Shown here piece by piece: positions 7,448-12,718 of a DNA stretch of 12,718 bases. The position numbers and the translations under genes were made by a program. The notes under the pieces are model-generated. The model was not told the DNA's origin. It did no database searches and saw nothing but the letters and a program-made list of their open reading frames with translations. The stretch spans positions 1-12,718 of the forward strand of contig JALHDI010000110.1 in NCBI GenBank assembly GCA_022839045.1. Direction: 5' to 3'. This DNA comes from Sporomusaceae bacterium. Lineage in GTDB: Bacteria > Bacillota_C > Negativicutes > Sporomusales_B > UBA7701. Every line of letters begins with the position of its first letter. Position 1 is the first letter of the stretch.

Positions 7448-7559
7448 TCCCGGGCCGGTCGTCCTTTCGGATCTTGATCGTATGATTAAAGAGCAACCAT
7501 AAGAGCAATGGCATTCGAGCCGCAAAAGGTGAACATTAGTTAATAAATCCCATGTCCCA

Positions 7560-7589
7560 TTGACGGAAAGTGAAAGGCATTGCTATAAT
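7560..7589 (+). promoter_or_regulatory. Sigma-70 promoter of the fluoride operon
   Basis: TTGACG (7560-7565), an 18-nt spacer, then TATAAT (7584-7589) preceded by TGC, giving an extended -10. The transcript should start near 7596, about 12 nt before the riboswitch aptamer, exactly where it is needed. Between the P1 peptidase stop and this promoter (7437-7559) the DNA is AT-richer and I see no gene. Confidence 0.85.
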
Positions 7590-7607
7590 TTAACCATATT
7601 GCAATAC

Positions 7608-7658
7608 GGTGATGGAGTTCGCCTTTAACCCCGTATTTATTGCGGTGATGACTCCTAC
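7608..7658 (+). ncRNA. Fluoride riboswitch (crcB motif) aptamer
   Basis: The sequence carries the conserved fluoride-aptamer blocks GGTGATGGAGTTCGCC (7608-7623), AACC and GGTGATGACTCCTAC (7644-7658). P1 is GGAGT (7614-7618) with ACTCC (7651-7655). The pseudoknot is GGTG (7608-7611) with CGCC (7620-7623), one wobble. P2 is CCGT with GCGG around ATTTATT. This RNA class binds fluoride through magnesium ions and usually turns on fluoride-export genes. The 3' strand of P1 is also the 5' arm of the terminator that follows, so fluoride binding should prevent termination (an ON switch). It lies 48 nt before the antiporter gene, which it should control together with uspA and the DUF190 remnant. Confidence 0.92.
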
Positions 7659-7689
7659 CAGTACACTACTGGTAGGAGTTTCTTGCTTC
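7651..7689 (+). terminator. Riboswitch-controlled intrinsic terminator
   Basis: Perfect 13-bp stem ACTCCTACCAGTA / TACTGGTAGGAGT (7651-7663 with 7667-7679), a CAC loop, then TTTCTTGCTTCTT. The first five bases of the 5' arm (ACTCC) are the P1 strand of the fluoride aptamer, so aptamer and terminator are mutually exclusive. The T-run is interrupted by C and G. Confidence 0.88.
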
Positions 7690-7705
7690 TTCCGGTTATG
7701 AAAGG

Positions 7706-8899
7706 ATGGTTGTCTTGGAACAAAATCTTCTCGTTGCAACCCAATGGATTTTCTTAGCCCTTGTTGCCAGCCTCTTATCAATCCGGCTGGGGATTTCAGT
7801 AGCCCTAATGGAGATTGTAGTCGGCATATTTGGCGGAAATGTATTGAATATCGAAATAACGCCGTGGGTGAATTTCCTGGCAGGCTTCGGCGCCGTAATC
7901 TTGACCTTTCTCGCGGGCGCGGAAATCGACCCCGAGAGCCTGAAAGAGAATATCAAGGAAAGCTTTGCAATCGGCGTTCTGTCGTTTCTCTTGCCTTTCC
8001 TGGGGGGGATGGCCTGCGCATATTATTTCTTCGGCTGGGATAGCAACGCATCCAAGATTGCCGGTATTGCGTTATCTACAACATCGGTAGCTGTGGTTTA
8101 TGCGGTCATGGTGGAAAGCGGCTTGTCATCCAGCCGCTTAGGGCAAGCCATCCTAGCTGCTTGTTTTATCACTGACCTGGGCACGGTGGTTGCACTGGGA
8201 ATCCTTTTTACCGGATTTTCGCTAAAACTTATCTGGTTTATTCTTATCCTCGTAATAACCCTCTTTATTGCCACGCCAATAGCAGCTAAACTATTTGCAT
8301 CATATGGAGGAAAGGTCAGTGAACCGGAAATCAAGTTCGTTTTCTTAGTGTTGGCCGGGCTCGGTTATGTGGCTTTAACCACTGGAAGCGAGGCCGTCCT
8401 TCCTGCTTATATACTTGGGATGGCAATGGCCGGCTTCTTTTCAAAGTACAAAGAAACTCTTCACAAGATGCGGGCAATTATTTTTGTTGCCTTTACGCCG
8501 TTCTACTTTCTTAAGGCCGGCGCTCTTATCTCATGGACTGCTCTCTATACGATGTTCGGTACCATCATGATATATTTGCTAGTGAAGGTTGCGGCCAAGT
8601 TCGTCGGCGTTTTGCCTGCCGCCTACGCTTTCAGTTACGGCCACCGGACGGGGATATACACCACCCTGCTGATGAGTACGGGCCTGACATTCGGCACCAT
8701 ATCCGCCTTGTACGGCCTGTCCAATAACTACATCAATAATAACCAGTATAGCGTGTTGGTTGCAGCGGTAATATTGAGCGCTGTTATCCCCACGGTAATC
8801 GCCCAGAAGTATTTCTTCCCGGTTCCTGGGGAAAGCAATGGTGATTCGGAGGAAATTGCTACAGTCCAAGTCGAAAGGAGTAGCGAAAATGAATGTTAA
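7706..8899 (+). CDS. CPA2-type cation:proton antiporter under fluoride riboswitch control
   Basis: 397 residues with about eleven to twelve hydrophobic helices, in the inner membrane. Family features include FLAGAEIDP (68-76), STTSVAVVYAV (124-134), the ion-site helix FITDLGTVVALG (154-165) and GSEAVLPAYILG (227-238). The usual Asp-Asp of sodium antiporters is Thr156-Asp157 here, so there is a single acidic ion-site residue. The soluble tail (about 374-397) is short, with no TrkA-N domain. Control by a fluoride riboswitch points to a role in fluoride or linked pH/cation stress; whether it moves fluoride itself is not known from sequence. The ATG at 7706 directly abuts AAAGG, which is too close; a TTG at 7715 (LEQNLL) has better spacing and may be the true start. 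GC content and codon use are lower and more mixed than in the flanking genes. uspA overlaps its end by 11 nt. Confidence 0.88.
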   Translation: MVVLEQNLLVATQWIFLALVASLLSIRLGISVALMEIVVGIFGGNVLNIEITPWVNFLAGFGAVILTFLAGAEIDPESLKENIKESFAIGVLSFLLPFLGGMACAYYFFGWDSNASKIAGIALSTTSVAVVYAVMVESGLSSSRLGQAILAACFITDLGTVVALGILFTGFSLKLIWFILILVITLFIATPIAAKLFASYGGKVSEPEIKFVFLVLAGLGYVALTTGSEAVLPAYILGMAMAGFFSKYKETLHKMRAIIFVAFTPFYFLKAGALISWTALYTMFGTIMIYLLVKVAAKFVGVLPAAYAFSYGHRTGIYTTLLMSTGLTFGTISALYGLSNNYINNNQYSVLVAAVILSAVIPTVIAQKYFFPVPGESNGDSEEIATVQVERSSENEC

Positions 8900-9314
8900 A
8901 AGAATTCTCGTTGCCTATGACGGTTCACGGCAAAGCCAGAAAGCATTACAATGGGCAGTTGCTATAGCTAGTAAATTCGATTCAGAGATTACTACAGTTA
9001 CAGTGATAAAACCGCCTGAATTTAGTCCGACCATAAGTGAAATCGATGAGTGTTATGCCGATGCGGAGCAACATTTAGCACCAATTCTGGAATCAGTCCG
9101 AAACTTTGGTCTGAACAACGGCATTACAATAAAAACGCAAATTCTCCGCGGCCATCCGGCGGAGAGCATTGTGAAGTACGCTTATGAAAATAAGGCGGAC
9201 GTCATTGCTATCGGCACCCGAGGAATGGGCGGGTTCAGGAACTTAATAATCGGCAGCGTGGCGCAAAAAGTAGTCACGTACTCCAAGATTCCCGTTCTGA
9301 CTGTTAAGGAATAG
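8889..9314 (+). CDS. Universal stress protein, ATP-binding UspA type
   Basis: 141 residues, one Usp domain of standard length. The N-terminal strand KRILVAYDGSRQSQKAL holds the conserved Asp after the first strand. The nucleotide motif G-X2-G-X9-G-S is complete near the end (GTRGMGGFRNLIIGS), so it should bind ATP. The protein closes with the usual IPVLTVK strand. The start is the ATG at 8889, preceded by AAAGGAG (8874-8880) at 8-nt spacing. A longer open frame upstream is a shadow of the antiporter gene. The start lies inside the antiporter coding sequence (11-nt overlap), so translation is probably coupled and expression depends on the fluoride riboswitch. Usp proteins next to antiporters may act as regulatory subunits; that is an inference here. 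Confidence 0.93.
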   Translation: MNVKRILVAYDGSRQSQKALQWAVAIASKFDSEITTVTVIKPPEFSPTISEIDECYADAEQHLAPILESVRNFGLNNGITIKTQILRGHPAESIVKYAYENKADVIAIGTRGMGGFRNLIIGSVAQKVVTYSKIPVLTVKE

Positions 9315-9326
9315 CGGAGGTGCCGG

Positions 9327-9742
9327 ATGCCGAAGATTACTGCCTAGGCTAAGCGGCTTAGAATCTACGTGGGCGAAACTGGCCGATGGCAGGGGAAGGC
9401 GCTATACCACGCAATTGTCTTAAGGCCAAAGATCTCGACCTGGCCGGGGCAACAGTCTTTCGCGGACTCATGGGTTACGGTGCTAATAGCCGCATCCATA
9501 CCGCTCGTATCGTCGAGCTTTCAAGTGACCCTTCCATTCTCATAGAAATTATCGATAGTCAAGAATATATCGCACGACTGCTTCCATATCTCGATGAAAT
9601 GGTTCCTGAAGGGATGGTAACCATCGATGATATAGAAGTAATCAAATATGGCGACAAGTCATCTACACCACCACCGCCGCCTGGCCGGTCCGCCTCACCC
9701 CCGGCGCGGCCGCCAGCCTCTCCGCCAGCCCCATCGCCATGA
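9327..9742 (+). pseudogene. DUF190 family gene, broken by a stop and a frameshift
   Basis: DUF190 proteins (COG1993) are small PII-like proteins often found beside crcB fluoride channels. The start is intact: GGAGG at 9316-9320, ATG at 9327, 12 nt after uspA. It reads MPKITA, then an in-frame TAG (9345-9347), then AKRLRIYVGE and KALYHAIV in the same frame. The rest (LKAKDLDLAGATVFRG, GYGANSRIHTARIVEL, LLPYLDEMVPEGMVTIDD, EVIKYG) is in another frame; one base is missing near 9419-9421. After KYGDK, where family members normally end, there is no stop. The frame runs into GC-rich DNA and adds a Pro/Ser/Ala tail ending at 9742. Two inactivating lesions plus a lost stop make decay likely. A sequencing error could explain one lesion but hardly all three. 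Full function would need readthrough and frameshifting, for which no signal is seen. Confidence 0.8.
9659..9740 (+). pseudogene. Possible truncated 3' end of a GC-rich gene
   Basis: Directly after the DUF190 homology ends, the frame beginning ATC TAC ACC at 9661 has 27 successive codons ending in C or G, the codon style of the window's native genes. It would read IYTTTAAWPVRLTPGAAA and onward. It has no start of its own and no clear stop before the terminator at 9751. I do not recognise the protein. This is best seen as a fragment left at the edge of the low-GC island, and it is uncertain. Confidence 0.35.
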
Positions 9743-9750
9743 GTCGCCGC

Positions 9751-9782
9751 AAAAAAAGCAACCCGGCCCCAAGTGCCGGGCT
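9751..9782 (-). terminator. Intrinsic terminator of the CXXX-repeat cluster
   Basis: On the minus strand AGCCCGGC pairs with GCCGGGTT (9775-9782 with 9760-9767, one G-U) around a 7-nt loop, followed by GC and seven T (9751-9757). It lies 21 nt after the precursor gene stop and ends the operon. Confidence 0.88.
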
Positions 9783-9803
9783 ATCGGCGTTATATCGTGC
9801 CTG

Positions 9804-10229
9804 TCAACGCATCATCCCCGTGCAGCCCCGCGTACACGTGCCGCTGCAGCCGCTGCCGCAATTCTGCGAACAGCTGCCGCGGCAGGTATTCTGGCACGAA
9901 CCGGTGCAAGTCTGGTAGCAGGACCCCCGGCAGGAGCCGTCGCACCCGTAGCTGCACTTGCCGCCGCACTGGCCGGAGCAACTCCCGGCGCAGGCCCAGT
10001 TGCAGCCGCTCCGCTGGGGAGACGGATCGCTGGCCTTGCTCGTCCCGGCGGCAGCCGGCCCCGCATCGTTCCCAGCCCCTTGTCCCAAGGGCGCCCCCTC
10101 GGCGAACGGGCCGAATCCCAAAAGGGCGAGCGAAGGCAGCACCAACCCCGCTTTCTTGATAAAATCGCGCCGGGTCAGGCCGTTGCCGGCGGCGGACACA
10201 TTCTCGGTTTCCCTGTCAGGTCCTTTCAT
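9804..10229 (-). CDS. Cys-X3 repeat radical SAM target (RiPP precursor) with Tat leader
   Basis: 141 residues. The leader carries a twin-arginine motif (TRRDFIKK, R20-R21) followed by a hydrophobic stretch (LVLPSLALLGFG), the pattern of a Tat signal, then a Gly/Ala/Pro-rich linker. From residue 76 to 136 there are 16 cysteines, each exactly four residues after the last (CNWA CAGS CSGQ CGGK and so on), then TGMMR. The spacing residues are mostly Gly, Ser, Thr, Asn, Gln or Arg. The composition and the neighbouring maturases match the class annotated as Cys-Xaa-Xaa-Xaa repeat radical SAM targets. The likely fate is modification of the cysteine region in the cytoplasm, then Tat export. The ATG at 10235 touches the AAGGAGG site; the second ATG at 10229 has 6-nt spacing and is chosen. 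It is the last gene of the operon and should be made in excess over the enzymes only if extra promoters exist; none is obvious. Confidence 0.87.
   Translation of the reverse strand: MKGPDRETENVSAAGNGLTRRDFIKKAGLVLPSLALLGFGPFAEGAPLGQGAGNDAGPAAAGTSKASDPSPQRSGCNWACAGSCSGQCGGKCSYGCDGSCRGSCYQTCTGSCQNTCRGSCSQNCGSGCSGTCTRGCTGMMR
9822..10004 (-). repeat. Coding tandem repeat of Cys-X3 units
   Basis: Sixteen Cys codons every 12 nt with no break in phase. The DNA between them varies (codons for Gly, Ser, Thr, Arg, Gln, Asn, Tyr, Trp), so the periodicity is kept at the protein level rather than by recent DNA duplication. Confidence 0.85.
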
Positions 10230-10286
10230 GGCCATCCTCCTTTCTTGCCGGCTGAGACGGCCGGGCGGTCGGGAAGGTCGTCGCCC

Positions 10287-10589
10287 CTACCGCTGACGGC
10301 GGATGTAGATGTCGCCGCTGGCGAAATCGATCTCCCAGCTGCAGCCGCTGATGTTCTCCCAGTCGTACTTTGCGCTTTTCTCGTCCCACCAAGCCTGAAA
10401 CCTGGTCGCCGTTTCCCCCATATCCCTCACCAGCCGCTCATAGATGGCGCTGCCGGCCAGCTCTTCGTCCGGCATGCCGACCAGGGAGCGGAAAAGCTCG
10501 CCCAAAGCGTTCTTCCGTTCGAAAAGCGCCTTGATTTCGTCGCGTTCGGCGGGGGTGACGGCGCCGATTTTTCGCCGTGCGTCGTTCAT
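10287..10589 (-). CDS. CXXX-repeat peptide modification system protein
   Basis: 100 residues, acidic-basic mixed, with no signal peptide or membrane segment. It starts MNDARRKIGAVTPAERDEI, continues with a helical ALFERKNALGELF segment and an IYERLVRDMGETATRFQAWWDEK helix, and closes with a short beta-like WEIDFASGDIYIRRQR tail. I match it, from memory of the family, to the small accessory protein named for CXXX-repeat peptide modification systems; its activity is unknown. A scaffold or leader-recognition partner for the maturases is a reasonable guess. The ATG at 10589 overlaps the stop of the upstream gene (ATGA), and GGAGG at 10598-10602 has 8-nt spacing. A longer open frame upstream is a shadow of the maturase gene. 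The precursor gene follows after 57 nt. Confidence 0.8.
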   Translation of the reverse strand: MNDARRKIGAVTPAERDEIKALFERKNALGELFRSLVGMPDEELAGSAIYERLVRDMGETATRFQAWWDEKSAKYDWENISGCSWEIDFASGDIYIRRQR

Positions 10590-11548
10590 GGCTGCAGCCT
10601 CCGTGTCGGGATTTGGTCGAAAGGATCGAGATAATCGACGTCCGGTATGGCCTTGAGCCGCGAAAAGGGGGGCGTCGCCCCGAGCCGCCGCCGGATGAGC
10701 CGGGCGGCGTTCCGCTCCAGGTGGGCCAGCACGCACTGCTCGCGGGACGGTGTATTCCATTCGAGCGTCGTCCTGCCGTTCAGATAGACGCAGCGCTTGC
10801 AGTGATAAGCGTCGCAGCACGAGCACACGGGCGCGTTCGCCAGCGTCAGCAGCTGGCCGTTGGCGAGGGTGACGCCGTCCGCGAGGCTGCCGGCCGCGTT
10901 ATCTTCGTTATCGTAGTAGAACCCGGGGCAAATATAAAAATTGCCGTTCGGCGCCGCGGTCAGGTGGACCACCCCGGCGTCGCAGTTATTCATGCCGCTC
11001 AGCAGCATCCGGTCCGAAAAGATATTCACCTCCGGCAGGCAGCCCTGCCGGTACAAATCGGTGACGTACCCGGCGGCGAGCTCCAACTGCCGGCCGTATT
11101 CGTCAATATCGGCGGCGGTGTAGCGGTCGATCCCGCCGAGGTAAAGATCGAGCCGCGCGGCCCGTCCCAGGCAGGAGCGGACGAGGACCGCCATATCGCC
11201 CAGCCGTCGCCGCGGCAGGCGGAGGATGAACTGGCGCTTGGCGCCGGTTTCGTCCGGAAAGCTGCCCGGGTCGTCGGCATCGAGCACGAGGATGGCGTCC
11301 GGGTACCGGCCGGCCAGGCCCGCGGGGACGATCGCGGCATAGTCGGTCCTGTCCAGCGTCGCCCGGTATTGCGGCGGCAGCTCTTCCCGGCCAAGCAGCA
11401 GGGTCAGCGCCAGCCCGCGGCTCCGGGCGAACGCGACGGCCTTCGCCAGCATGGCGAGCGGCATCAGCTCTGTTTTTCGGCGGTCGTGGTCGTAATGGCA
11501 GAACGGCGGCGCGCTGGCATCGACCAGCACCAGCAGATGGGTCAGCAT
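10586..11548 (-). CDS. CXXX-repeat peptide maturase, SPASM-like, lacking the radical SAM motif
   Basis: 320 residues. There is no CX3CX2C radical SAM motif; only isolated cysteines at 17, 126 and 170 lie in the first half. The C-terminal half has a SPASM-type pattern: C189-X12-G-X4-C207 (CDAG ... PNGNFYIC), then C242-X2-C245-X4-C250-X2-C253 (CSCCDAYHCKRC) and C272. This pattern normally binds auxiliary 4Fe-4S clusters. The N-terminus (LTHLLVLVDASAPPFCHYD) and a long middle region suggest a degenerate barrel-like enzyme. It fits the partner maturase known from CXXX-repeat systems. The role is unproven: it could hold the precursor, pass electrons, or be a second enzyme. The start overlaps the upstream radical SAM stop by 7 nt with only a weak ribosome site, so coupling is likely. 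The downstream overlap is 4 nt. Confidence 0.83.
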   Translation of the reverse strand: MLTHLLVLVDASAPPFCHYDHDRRKTELMPLAMLAKAVAFARSRGLALTLLLGREELPPQYRATLDRTDYAAIVPAGLAGRYPDAILVLDADDPGSFPDETGAKRQFILRLPRRRLGDMAVLVRSCLGRAARLDLYLGGIDRYTAADIDEYGRQLELAAGYVTDLYRQGCLPEVNIFSDRMLLSGMNNCDAGVVHLTAAPNGNFYICPGFYYDNEDNAAGSLADGVTLANGQLLTLANAPVCSCCDAYHCKRCVYLNGRTTLEWNTPSREQCVLAHLERNAARLIRRRLGATPPFSRLKAIPDVDYLDPFDQIPTRRLQP

Positions 11549-12714
11549 AAGATTTCGCCCCGCTTCCGGCGCAGCCTGTCCCAGTAGTACCCGTTCGCCC
11601 GGACGCGGGCCTTGTGCATCGGGCAGATATAGGTCGCCCGCTGGTAAATGGTGTCCGTGGCAGCCGCTTCATAGTTCAGGCCCTGGCACCAGGCACAGCC
11701 GCTGGCCACCTCGCAGGCGACGCACTCCGGCGGGCTTTGCGCCAGCCGGGTCAGGGCGAGGAACGGCCGCAGCAGGTTCATGTTGACGCCGTCCGCGCAG
11801 TTGCCCACAACCCGCGGCTTTTTCGCGCTCATCGAGTGGGGCGCGAAGCGCACGCAGGGGTAAAACTCCCCTCCGGCGCCCACGGCGAGCATCTTGCCCG
11901 ACCCGCACCAGTTCTGATTGTCGCCCGCCGGGTCGAGCGGCTTGCCGATCGAAGCGTCGAAAAACGAGCACGCGTATTCCCGGTACAGCTCCCGGTCGAT
12001 AATTTCATCGGCCAGGCTTACGAGCTGTTCTTCGAACAAAGCGTCGTCGCCCGGCTGCCACACATCCTCGAACACGACGTTGATATTCACCGTTTTCACG
12101 CCCAGGCTCCAGATATGCAGCACGCTCTCCTTGATATAGGGCAGATCGTCGTGCGCCACCGTGACCTTGGTGCCCGCGTCGGGAAACTGCCGCAGCCACA
12201 GGGGGATGTTGCGCATCACCGCGTCGTAGGAGCCGCGCCCGTCGGGGAAAACCCGGGCGATATCGTGCTTTTCCCTGATGCCGTCGATCGTAATCCCGAT
12301 GCTGAGATGGCTGTGGTTCTTGAAAATATAGCGCTGTACCCTGGGGTCGTCGTACATCAGGCCGTTGGTGGACAGGCTGAAGCGGTAGCAGTCGAACCAG
12401 GGGTGGCCCGTCGCGTACATGCGCAGCTTGATATAATCGCTGATCCTGTCGATCAACTCGATCTCCATCAGCGGCTCGCCGCCGATGAATTCCCAGATCA
12501 CCGACGGCTCGGCGAACAGCTCCCTTTCCCCGAGAACATAGTCCACCGTTTTTCGGGCGCAGGCCAAATCCATCCGCCGGCCGGGATTTTTGCCGACGAG
12601 GTAGCAATACTTACAGCGCAGCTGGCAGTCCTCGGTGACGATGAAGGTGATGTTTTTGGCGCGGCCTTCCTCCCAGGACGCCTCCGGCCGTTTGCATCGC
12701 TCCTGTTCCTCCAT
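11542..12714 (-). CDS. Radical SAM/SPASM peptide maturase, CXXX-repeat target family
   Basis: 390 residues as seen. The radical SAM cluster motif is C30-X3-C34-X2-C37 (CQLRCKYC), followed by the SAM-contact motif IGGEP (77-81). Further conserved segments are STNGLM (115-120), ITIDGIREKHD (141-151) and FPDGRGSYD (156-164). The SPASM domain has C270-X11-G-X4-C287, C331-X2-C334-X5-C340-X2-C343 and C364, enough for two auxiliary 4Fe-4S clusters. It should act on the Cys-X3 precursor at the other end of the operon, probably by radical chemistry at or near cysteine; the exact bond is unknown. The first ATG (12714) is only 4 nt from the window edge, so its ribosome site and a possible longer N-terminus cannot be judged. 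It is the first visible gene of the operon; more genes may lie upstream. Confidence 0.9.
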   Translation of the reverse strand: MEEQERCKRPEASWEEGRAKNITFIVTEDCQLRCKYCYLVGKNPGRRMDLACARKTVDYVLGERELFAEPSVIWEFIGGEPLMEIELIDRISDYIKLRMYATGHPWFDCYRFSLSTNGLMYDDPRVQRYIFKNHSHLSIGITIDGIREKHDIARVFPDGRGSYDAVMRNIPLWLRQFPDAGTKVTVAHDDLPYIKESVLHIWSLGVKTVNINVVFEDVWQPGDDALFEEQLVSLADEIIDRELYREYACSFFDASIGKPLDPAGDNQNWCGSGKMLAVGAGGEFYPCVRFAPHSMSAKKPRVVGNCADGVNMNLLRPFLALTRLAQSPPECVACEVASGCAWCQGLNYEAAATDTIYQRATYICPMHKARVRANGYYWDRLRRKRGEILC

Positions 12715-12718
12715 GGGT

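Follow-up and report, generated by a model that had tools for sequence, protein, structure and literature searches.

A CXXX-repeat radical S-adenosylmethionine peptide operon whose precursor leader probably doubles as a twin-arginine export signal

The window considered here, a stretch of 12,718 nucleotides (nt) from a Sporomusaceae bacterium (contig JALHDI010000110.1 of assembly GCA_022839045.1), carries near its right end a four-gene cluster for a ribosomally synthesized and post-translationally modified peptide (RiPP). The cluster encodes a radical S-adenosylmethionine (SAM) maturase, a radical-SAM-like partner, a small accessory protein and a cysteine-repeat precursor whose leader has the features of a twin-arginine translocation (Tat) signal. 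The features of the cluster are as follows.

11542..12714, (-): radical SAM/SPASM peptide maturase (TIGR04115), 390 aa, identified by NCBIfam profile, CX3CX2C motif present
10586..11548, (-): partner (TIGR04119), 320 aa, radical-SAM-like barrel without CX3CX2C and a SPASM-like region, with seven invariant Cys
10287..10589, (-): accessory protein (TIGR04116), 100 aa, identified by NCBIfam profile; proposed to guard the leader
9804..10235, (-): precursor, 143 aa, with Tat-type leader, variable linker and 16-Cys core
10107..10178, (-): Tat-like signal within the precursor, residues 20-43, LTRRDFIKKAGLVLPSLALLGFGP, from the translation, with family-conserved twin Arg and Pro
9759..9783, (-): possible intrinsic terminator, hairpin with T run, the one site found in a scan

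A preliminary description of the window placed the four genes on one strand, and all are indeed on (-), with the maturase and partner genes overlapping by 7 nt and the partner and accessory genes by 4 nt; the 57-nt gap that it gave between the accessory and precursor genes holds if the precursor starts at its second ATG (10229-10227) and becomes 51 nt with the first. Its "strong terminator" is present as a hairpin with a T run and is a plausible one, but the strength claimed for it does not stand out from chance: the scan finds one site where 2.5 are expected in the stretch, and the fold of 9748-9792 has -16.6 kcal/mol and a z-score of -1.25. Only 4 bases of the window lie beyond the maturase start, so the completeness of the cluster can be judged only in part.

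Family membership, which the preliminary description had proposed, is confirmed by the NCBIfam profile scan; the outcome named there as refuting it, a lack of matches to the CXXX models, did not occur. The maturase scores 593.3 bits against a cut-off of 350 (TIGR04115), the partner 215.8 against 150 (TIGR04119), the accessory protein 85.3 against 50 (TIGR04116), and the precursor 30.3 against 20 with the repeat model TIGR04114. The one shortfall is TIGR04117 (Syntroph_Cxxx precursor, a paralog model), with which the window precursor reaches 30.6 of the required 50 bits; among the precursors of seven relatives that of L009 passes (66.7), that of L005 lies at 50.0, and five fall below 50. The window cluster is thus a member of the multi-part CXXX system named in NCBIfam, and this membership is not new; the model names alone mention neither Tat export nor a radical-SAM fold of the partner, and a search for these names in the open-access literature yields no paper on the system among the matches listed. 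The first reading overlooked the Tat character of the leader, the presence of tat genes in the clusters of relatives and the partner's degenerate radical-SAM fold.

The precursor has 16 Cys, as described earlier, at residues 78, 82 and so on to 138 in strict four-residue spacing; when the core is shuffled 20,000 times the run never exceeds eight, and across 126 precursors of the family 1847 neighbouring Cys pairs are four residues apart. In the leader, the motif TRRDFIKK followed by a hydrophobic core fits the SRRxFLK-type Tat pattern (PMC3712460; literature sources are cited here from excerpts), and a possible signal-peptidase site, AEG/A, can be picked out by eye behind it. All ten homologues of the window precursor, those from L001, L002 and Anaeroselena agilis among them, keep (T/N)RR(D/E)F(I/L)(K/R) and LPSIA on inspection by eye. 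A protein search labels these homologues PF27846. The Tat motif has already been noticed at the level of annotation, as the UniRef name of the A. agilis precursor begins "Twin-arginine translocation signal domain-con".

Relatives were collected by a genome scan with the maturase, keeping the best 80 of 132, which with the window gives 81 loci; by record titles these are mostly Bacteroidales and kin, and nearly all are metagenome-assembled genomes (MAGs). The maturase is present in 81/81 loci, the partner in 80/81 and TIGR04116 in 75/81; TIGR04116 is missing from the three Deltaproteobacterial loci (L066, L079, L080) and from three others that stop short (L059, L060, L077). Close to the window stand L001 and L002, both Selenomonadales MAGs (maturase identity 88% and 81%), and L096 (genome G366, A. 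agilis; Negativicutes, Acetonemataceae), which aligns with the window DNA in five segments of 84-90% identity. The loci hold 126 precursor-like open reading frames (ORFs) on the cluster strand, from which three cut by contig ends and three Deltaproteobacterial ones were removed. All 120 remaining precursors have twin Arg, 108 match RRxF[FLIMV][KR], and 116 have Pro at position +12 or +13 from the first Arg. One locus, L009 (Rhodospirillales), has four Cys-rich ORFs with twin-Arg leaders around maturase genes whose order differs.

The genes that most often accompany the cluster in relatives are those of the Tat machinery itself. A first-pass clustering of flanking ORFs of at least 80 aa finds tatC in 51 loci and tatA in 15, with the next families in seven and six loci; a profile search finds tatA in 56/81 loci and tatC in 55/81, and four tatA/tatC pairs are confirmed by Pfam. 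Both genes lie downstream of the TIGR04116 gene, and every one of the 55 pairs shares the strand of the cluster; the distance from the TIGR04116 gene to tatA is under 100 nt in 51 pairs and 108-727 nt in four. All 55 tat-linked loci fall among the 68 loci of Bacteroidales type, grouped by title except for L046, which was placed by the radical-SAM tree. In that tree L040 (titled Lachnoclostridium) and L046 (titled Clostridium) fall among Bacteroidota, either as mislabelled MAGs or through recent transfer.

The cluster-borne TatC proteins mostly form a lineage of their own. In a tree of 54 cluster, 27 other-in-genome and 32 background rows, a 45-row clade (support 100/99, in a tree whose bootstrap is not fully settled and which has three rows on very long branches) comprises 42 of the cluster rows and three labelled as other; these three (L102, L104, L109; genomes G018, G027, G046) adjoin a second TIGR04116 gene, so that all 45 rows are cluster-linked, and none of the background rows falls inside. 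Over the starred branches at least eight changes of cluster label are required, against a shuffled mean of 37.8. Among 34 genomes with a cluster TatC, 14 have no other TatC, a provisional figure since many are MAGs, and a fifteenth (G027) has solely CXXX-linked TatC. In a quick radical-SAM tree (37/81 rows), L005, L018 and L034 join L036 with support 93, below the level that earns a star; the TatC of L036 sits in the main clade and those of the other three in a different group, which suggests that the tatC of the operon was replaced and the linkage then restored.

The three Deltaproteobacterial loci separate the parts of the system. Their leaders keep the Pro, with R-K in place of R-R 13 residues before it, and have lost F-F-K; their best hydrophobic stretch reaches 1.13, whereas the lowest value is 1.51 among the Tat-type leaders that the comparison took in, the 108 with Pro at +13 (the other 12 being excluded). 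TIGR04116 is found in none of these three genomes and in 7/7 other CXXX genomes. Directly after the partner gene an ATP-binding cassette (ABC) exporter starts in all three loci, and the genomes have TatC elsewhere. Since these loci keep the maturases and the Pro and lack RRxFFK, the hydrophobic core and TIGR04116, their sequences suggest that the maturases and the Pro region may go with modification and the other three with Tat. In L079 an S8 subtilase with an autotransporter domain (12185-15730) follows the ABC exporter. A wider switch between Tat and ABC export beyond this one lineage was considered and dropped, with TIGR04115 in only 3/46 genomes of the class and 1/395 sampled genomes of the phylum.

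Several of the results weigh against Tat export of the product. With the Tat-signal model TIGR01409 the window precursor scores 14.8 bits, slightly short of the required 16.7. Neither the window nor the cluster flanks in its four close relatives show a tat gene, and in all four relatives tatC lies away from the cluster; more broadly, of the 26 loci without tatC, six have at most 1 kb beyond the maturation genes, and 20 have room downstream and still lack it (eight of Bacteroidales type and all 12 other uncut loci, the window included). Twelve of the 54 cluster TatC rows fall outside the main clade: eight (L005, L018, L026, L032, L034, L042, L050, L078) form a second group that also contains other TatC from two of the same genomes, and L008, L013, L064 and L138 stand among mixed rows. 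Among the Deltaproteobacterial leaders, that of L080 keeps its twin Arg one residue off register (RRKDQM), and the three loci are close kin, perhaps representing one event at best. TatC is present in all 50 CXXX genomes examined for it (50 of the 80 loci), yet also in 246/295 genomes of the order of G007; its presence was therefore set aside as proof of Tat use, and the argument is carried by linkage, tree and copy number. Copy number does differ: at least two TatC occur in 25/50 CXXX genomes (21/38 without the 12 genomes titled outside Bacteroidales), and in the order of G007, which as a background matches the 50 CXXX genomes only in part, in 14/288 genomes without TIGR04115 over the cut-off and 4/7 with it.

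The maturase family is well defined by motif, with CX3CX2C in 81/81 members of TIGR04115. For the window maturase the next-best model is that of PapB (NF047865), at 162.6 bits below its cut-off of 340, and the sole sequence relative in PDB at E ≤ 0.001 is 5wgg (E 5.8e-25). We take 5wgg to be CteB, a SCIFF maturase; the database lists it as a radical SAM protein of sactipeptide thioether formation. The partner, TIGR04119, has a radical-SAM/SPASM fold in its predicted model, with 5wgg/5why as best fold match, and differs from CteB in lacking CX3CX2C, which is found in none of 61 family members (first 60 residues scanned). By this motif the partner is probably a relative of radical SAM enzymes in fold rather than an active one. 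The AlphaFold2 model of TIGR04116 (pLDDT 90.4) has two long helices and short strands and matches no PDB fold at E ≤ 0.001; a role as RiPP recognition element was considered and gained no supporting fold match, though an absent match proves nothing.

On the side of chemistry, the window shares with PapB and the freyrasin-type ranthipeptides the next-best maturase model and the i to i+4 spacing. PapB joins Cys to Asp/Glu, naturally within CX3D (PMC9413430, excerpts). The window maturase scores less than half the PapB cut-off, and the window adds TIGR04116 and a further radical-SAM-like protein that lacks the motif. Throughout the window core position i+4 is Cys, and the CX3D/E acceptor of PapB is absent, a further point against the reading proposed here. 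Between Cys spaced by four, Gly occupies the second position in 41% of cases and Ser, Gly or Thr the third in 68%; either a small residue or the following Cys is therefore the acceptor, or the chemistry is not of the thioether kind. On balance thioether-type links on the Cys rod appear the somewhat likelier outcome, as far as the sequences can indicate.

Taken together, the cluster is likely a CXXX radical-SAM RiPP operon whose leader doubles as a Tat signal and whose product is exported, folded, by Tat; for the window itself, the use of Tat would follow from the leader motif and from kinship with the relatives. The precursor would remain cytoplasmic and its leader bound to the maturation proteins, probably to TIGR04116, while the TIGR04115 enzyme would modify the Cys of the CX3 rod, most likely with thioether cross-links, and the probably inactive TIGR04119 would offer it extra Fe-S clusters and/or a docking surface. 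The folded product would then leave through Tat, and signal peptidase I would remove the leader. In 55 of the 68 Bacteroidales-type loci the operon would use its own TatA and TatC, and in the Negativicute lineage of the window the general Tat system. Of these elements, family membership, the repeat, the leader motif, the tat linkage and the predicted fold of the partner are established computationally; Tat use itself, the chemistry, gating by TIGR04116, cleavage and the role of the product are inferences.

RiPPs usually exit by ABC exporters with dedicated proteases. The preliminary description saw no such protease or transporter in the window; the Tat-type leader and the tat genes of relatives offer a reason, in that Tat and signal peptidase probably stand in for both. 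Some Bacteroidales precursors would become Tat lipoproteins instead: a lipobox directly continuing the leader, with two or more acidic residues after its Cys, is present in at least 17 of the 120 precursors, the lower figure (broader pattern counts of 37 and 43 take in core Cys; 18 have two acidic residues, of which L050 was dropped by eye). This pattern, seen in L004, L006, L012, L020, L059 and others, is reminiscent of the surface-export signal of Bacteroidetes lipoproteins.

The leader could also be read as that of an ordinary ranthipeptide or sactipeptide system, in which the twin Arg would be only a recognition motif for the maturases, export would run through an unlinked ABC exporter, and the tat linkage would be operon drift. 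The affinity of the maturase to PapB and CteB, the ABC exporter next to the maturases of the Deltaproteobacterial loci and the lack of tat genes near the window are all in keeping with such a system; it is nonetheless unlikely, as RRxF[FLIMV][KR] with its hydrophobic core is kept in the family and lost in the Deltaproteobacterial leaders though their Pro stays, and as cluster TatC mostly forms its own clade, with the same neighbour genes recurring in the second TatC group.

Two further explanations were weighed. Many Tat cargoes carry cofactors (PMC3712460, excerpts) and the Cys periodicity could fit metal sites, so that the product might be a Tat-exported, metallothionein-like rod binding metal or Fe-S, its maturases loading or protecting a metal array; this is slightly less probable again, given the radical-SAM motif in 81/81 TIGR04115 members and the thioethers formed by their nearest characterised relatives. 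Export by the general secretory (Sec) route, as in bufferins, has a precedent in the Sec signals of MNIO-modified RiPPs; a Sec leader is described as rare among bacterial RiPPs (PMC12452194, excerpts). With twin Arg in every one of the 120 precursors and tatA/tatC within the operon in 55/81 loci, Sec export is very improbable.

Known systems offer partial parallels to Tat export of a radical-SAM peptide. Bufferins and DAG-RiPPs likewise use a signal peptide as leader, and some are lipidated (PMC12452194; preprint PMC12636315); they differ in their MNIO enzymes and Sec export (PMC12452194), where the window has radical SAM and proposed Tat. In the excerpts of these sources "Tat" and "twin" are absent from PMC12452194 and "twin" from PMC12636315. 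The Tat proofreading chaperones NapD and TorD, which hold a Tat signal until maturation ends (PMC3712460, excerpts), provide an analogy for TIGR04116; no match to them in sequence or fold is seen, and its proofreading role is a proposal. A survey of Bacteroidales RiPPs pairs peptidase-containing ABC transporters with GG leaders, and a term search of its main text, as far as available, does not find "Tat", "twin" or "CXXX" (PMC10352776). No Tat-exported radical-SAM RiPP appears in the open-access literature among the matches listed, subscription papers lying outside the search; the one paper that combines the terms radical SAM, RiPP and TatC, PMC12654047, deals as excerpted with another subject.

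Beyond the four genes, the surroundings differ between the window and its relatives.

9386-9742, (+), window: ORF of a DUF190 protein, matching PF02641 from profile position 25 only
L001:4004-5275, L002:6586-7839, L096:4464-6119 and L097:9548-11161: S41 peptidase, by Pfam

The stretch 7500-9700 that adjoins the cluster has a lower G+C content (about 44-52%, against 60-70% around it) and encodes a Na+/H+ antiporter-like protein, a universal stress protein and the DUF190 protein; the partial profile match of the DUF190 ORF and its terminal Pro/Ser-rich tail, at which the G+C content rises, look as if the junction of the block lay inside this gene. In L001, L096 and L097 the precursor is followed by a gene for a UvdE endonuclease in place of this block. 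Upstream of the maturase in the four Negativicute relatives lies the Ctp-like S41 peptidase; the two are separated by a PAS-GGDEF-EAL protein in both L001 and L096, and by an EAL piece in L097. These are possible partners in processing and regulation that lie outside the window.

A further-reaching account is offered tentatively, as rather less probable than Tat export itself. The CXXX system would be a class of folded RiPPs exported by Tat, with specialised cluster TatA and TatC in most Bacteroidales-type loci; TIGR04116 would be a new proofreading factor for Tat leaders, freeing the signal only once the pair of live and dead radical-SAM proteins has cross-linked the whole rod, and the product would be a periplasmic or surface-anchored thioether rod. 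If Tat export holds, it would be an unusual exit for a RiPP class, in which a finished, rigid, cross-linked peptide leaves by an exporter able to take folded cargo, and a radical-SAM-like protein that lacks the catalytic motif is given a proposed role. How export waits for completed modification would then become directly testable, with Anaeroselena agilis, a relative whose genome is available, as a test organism.

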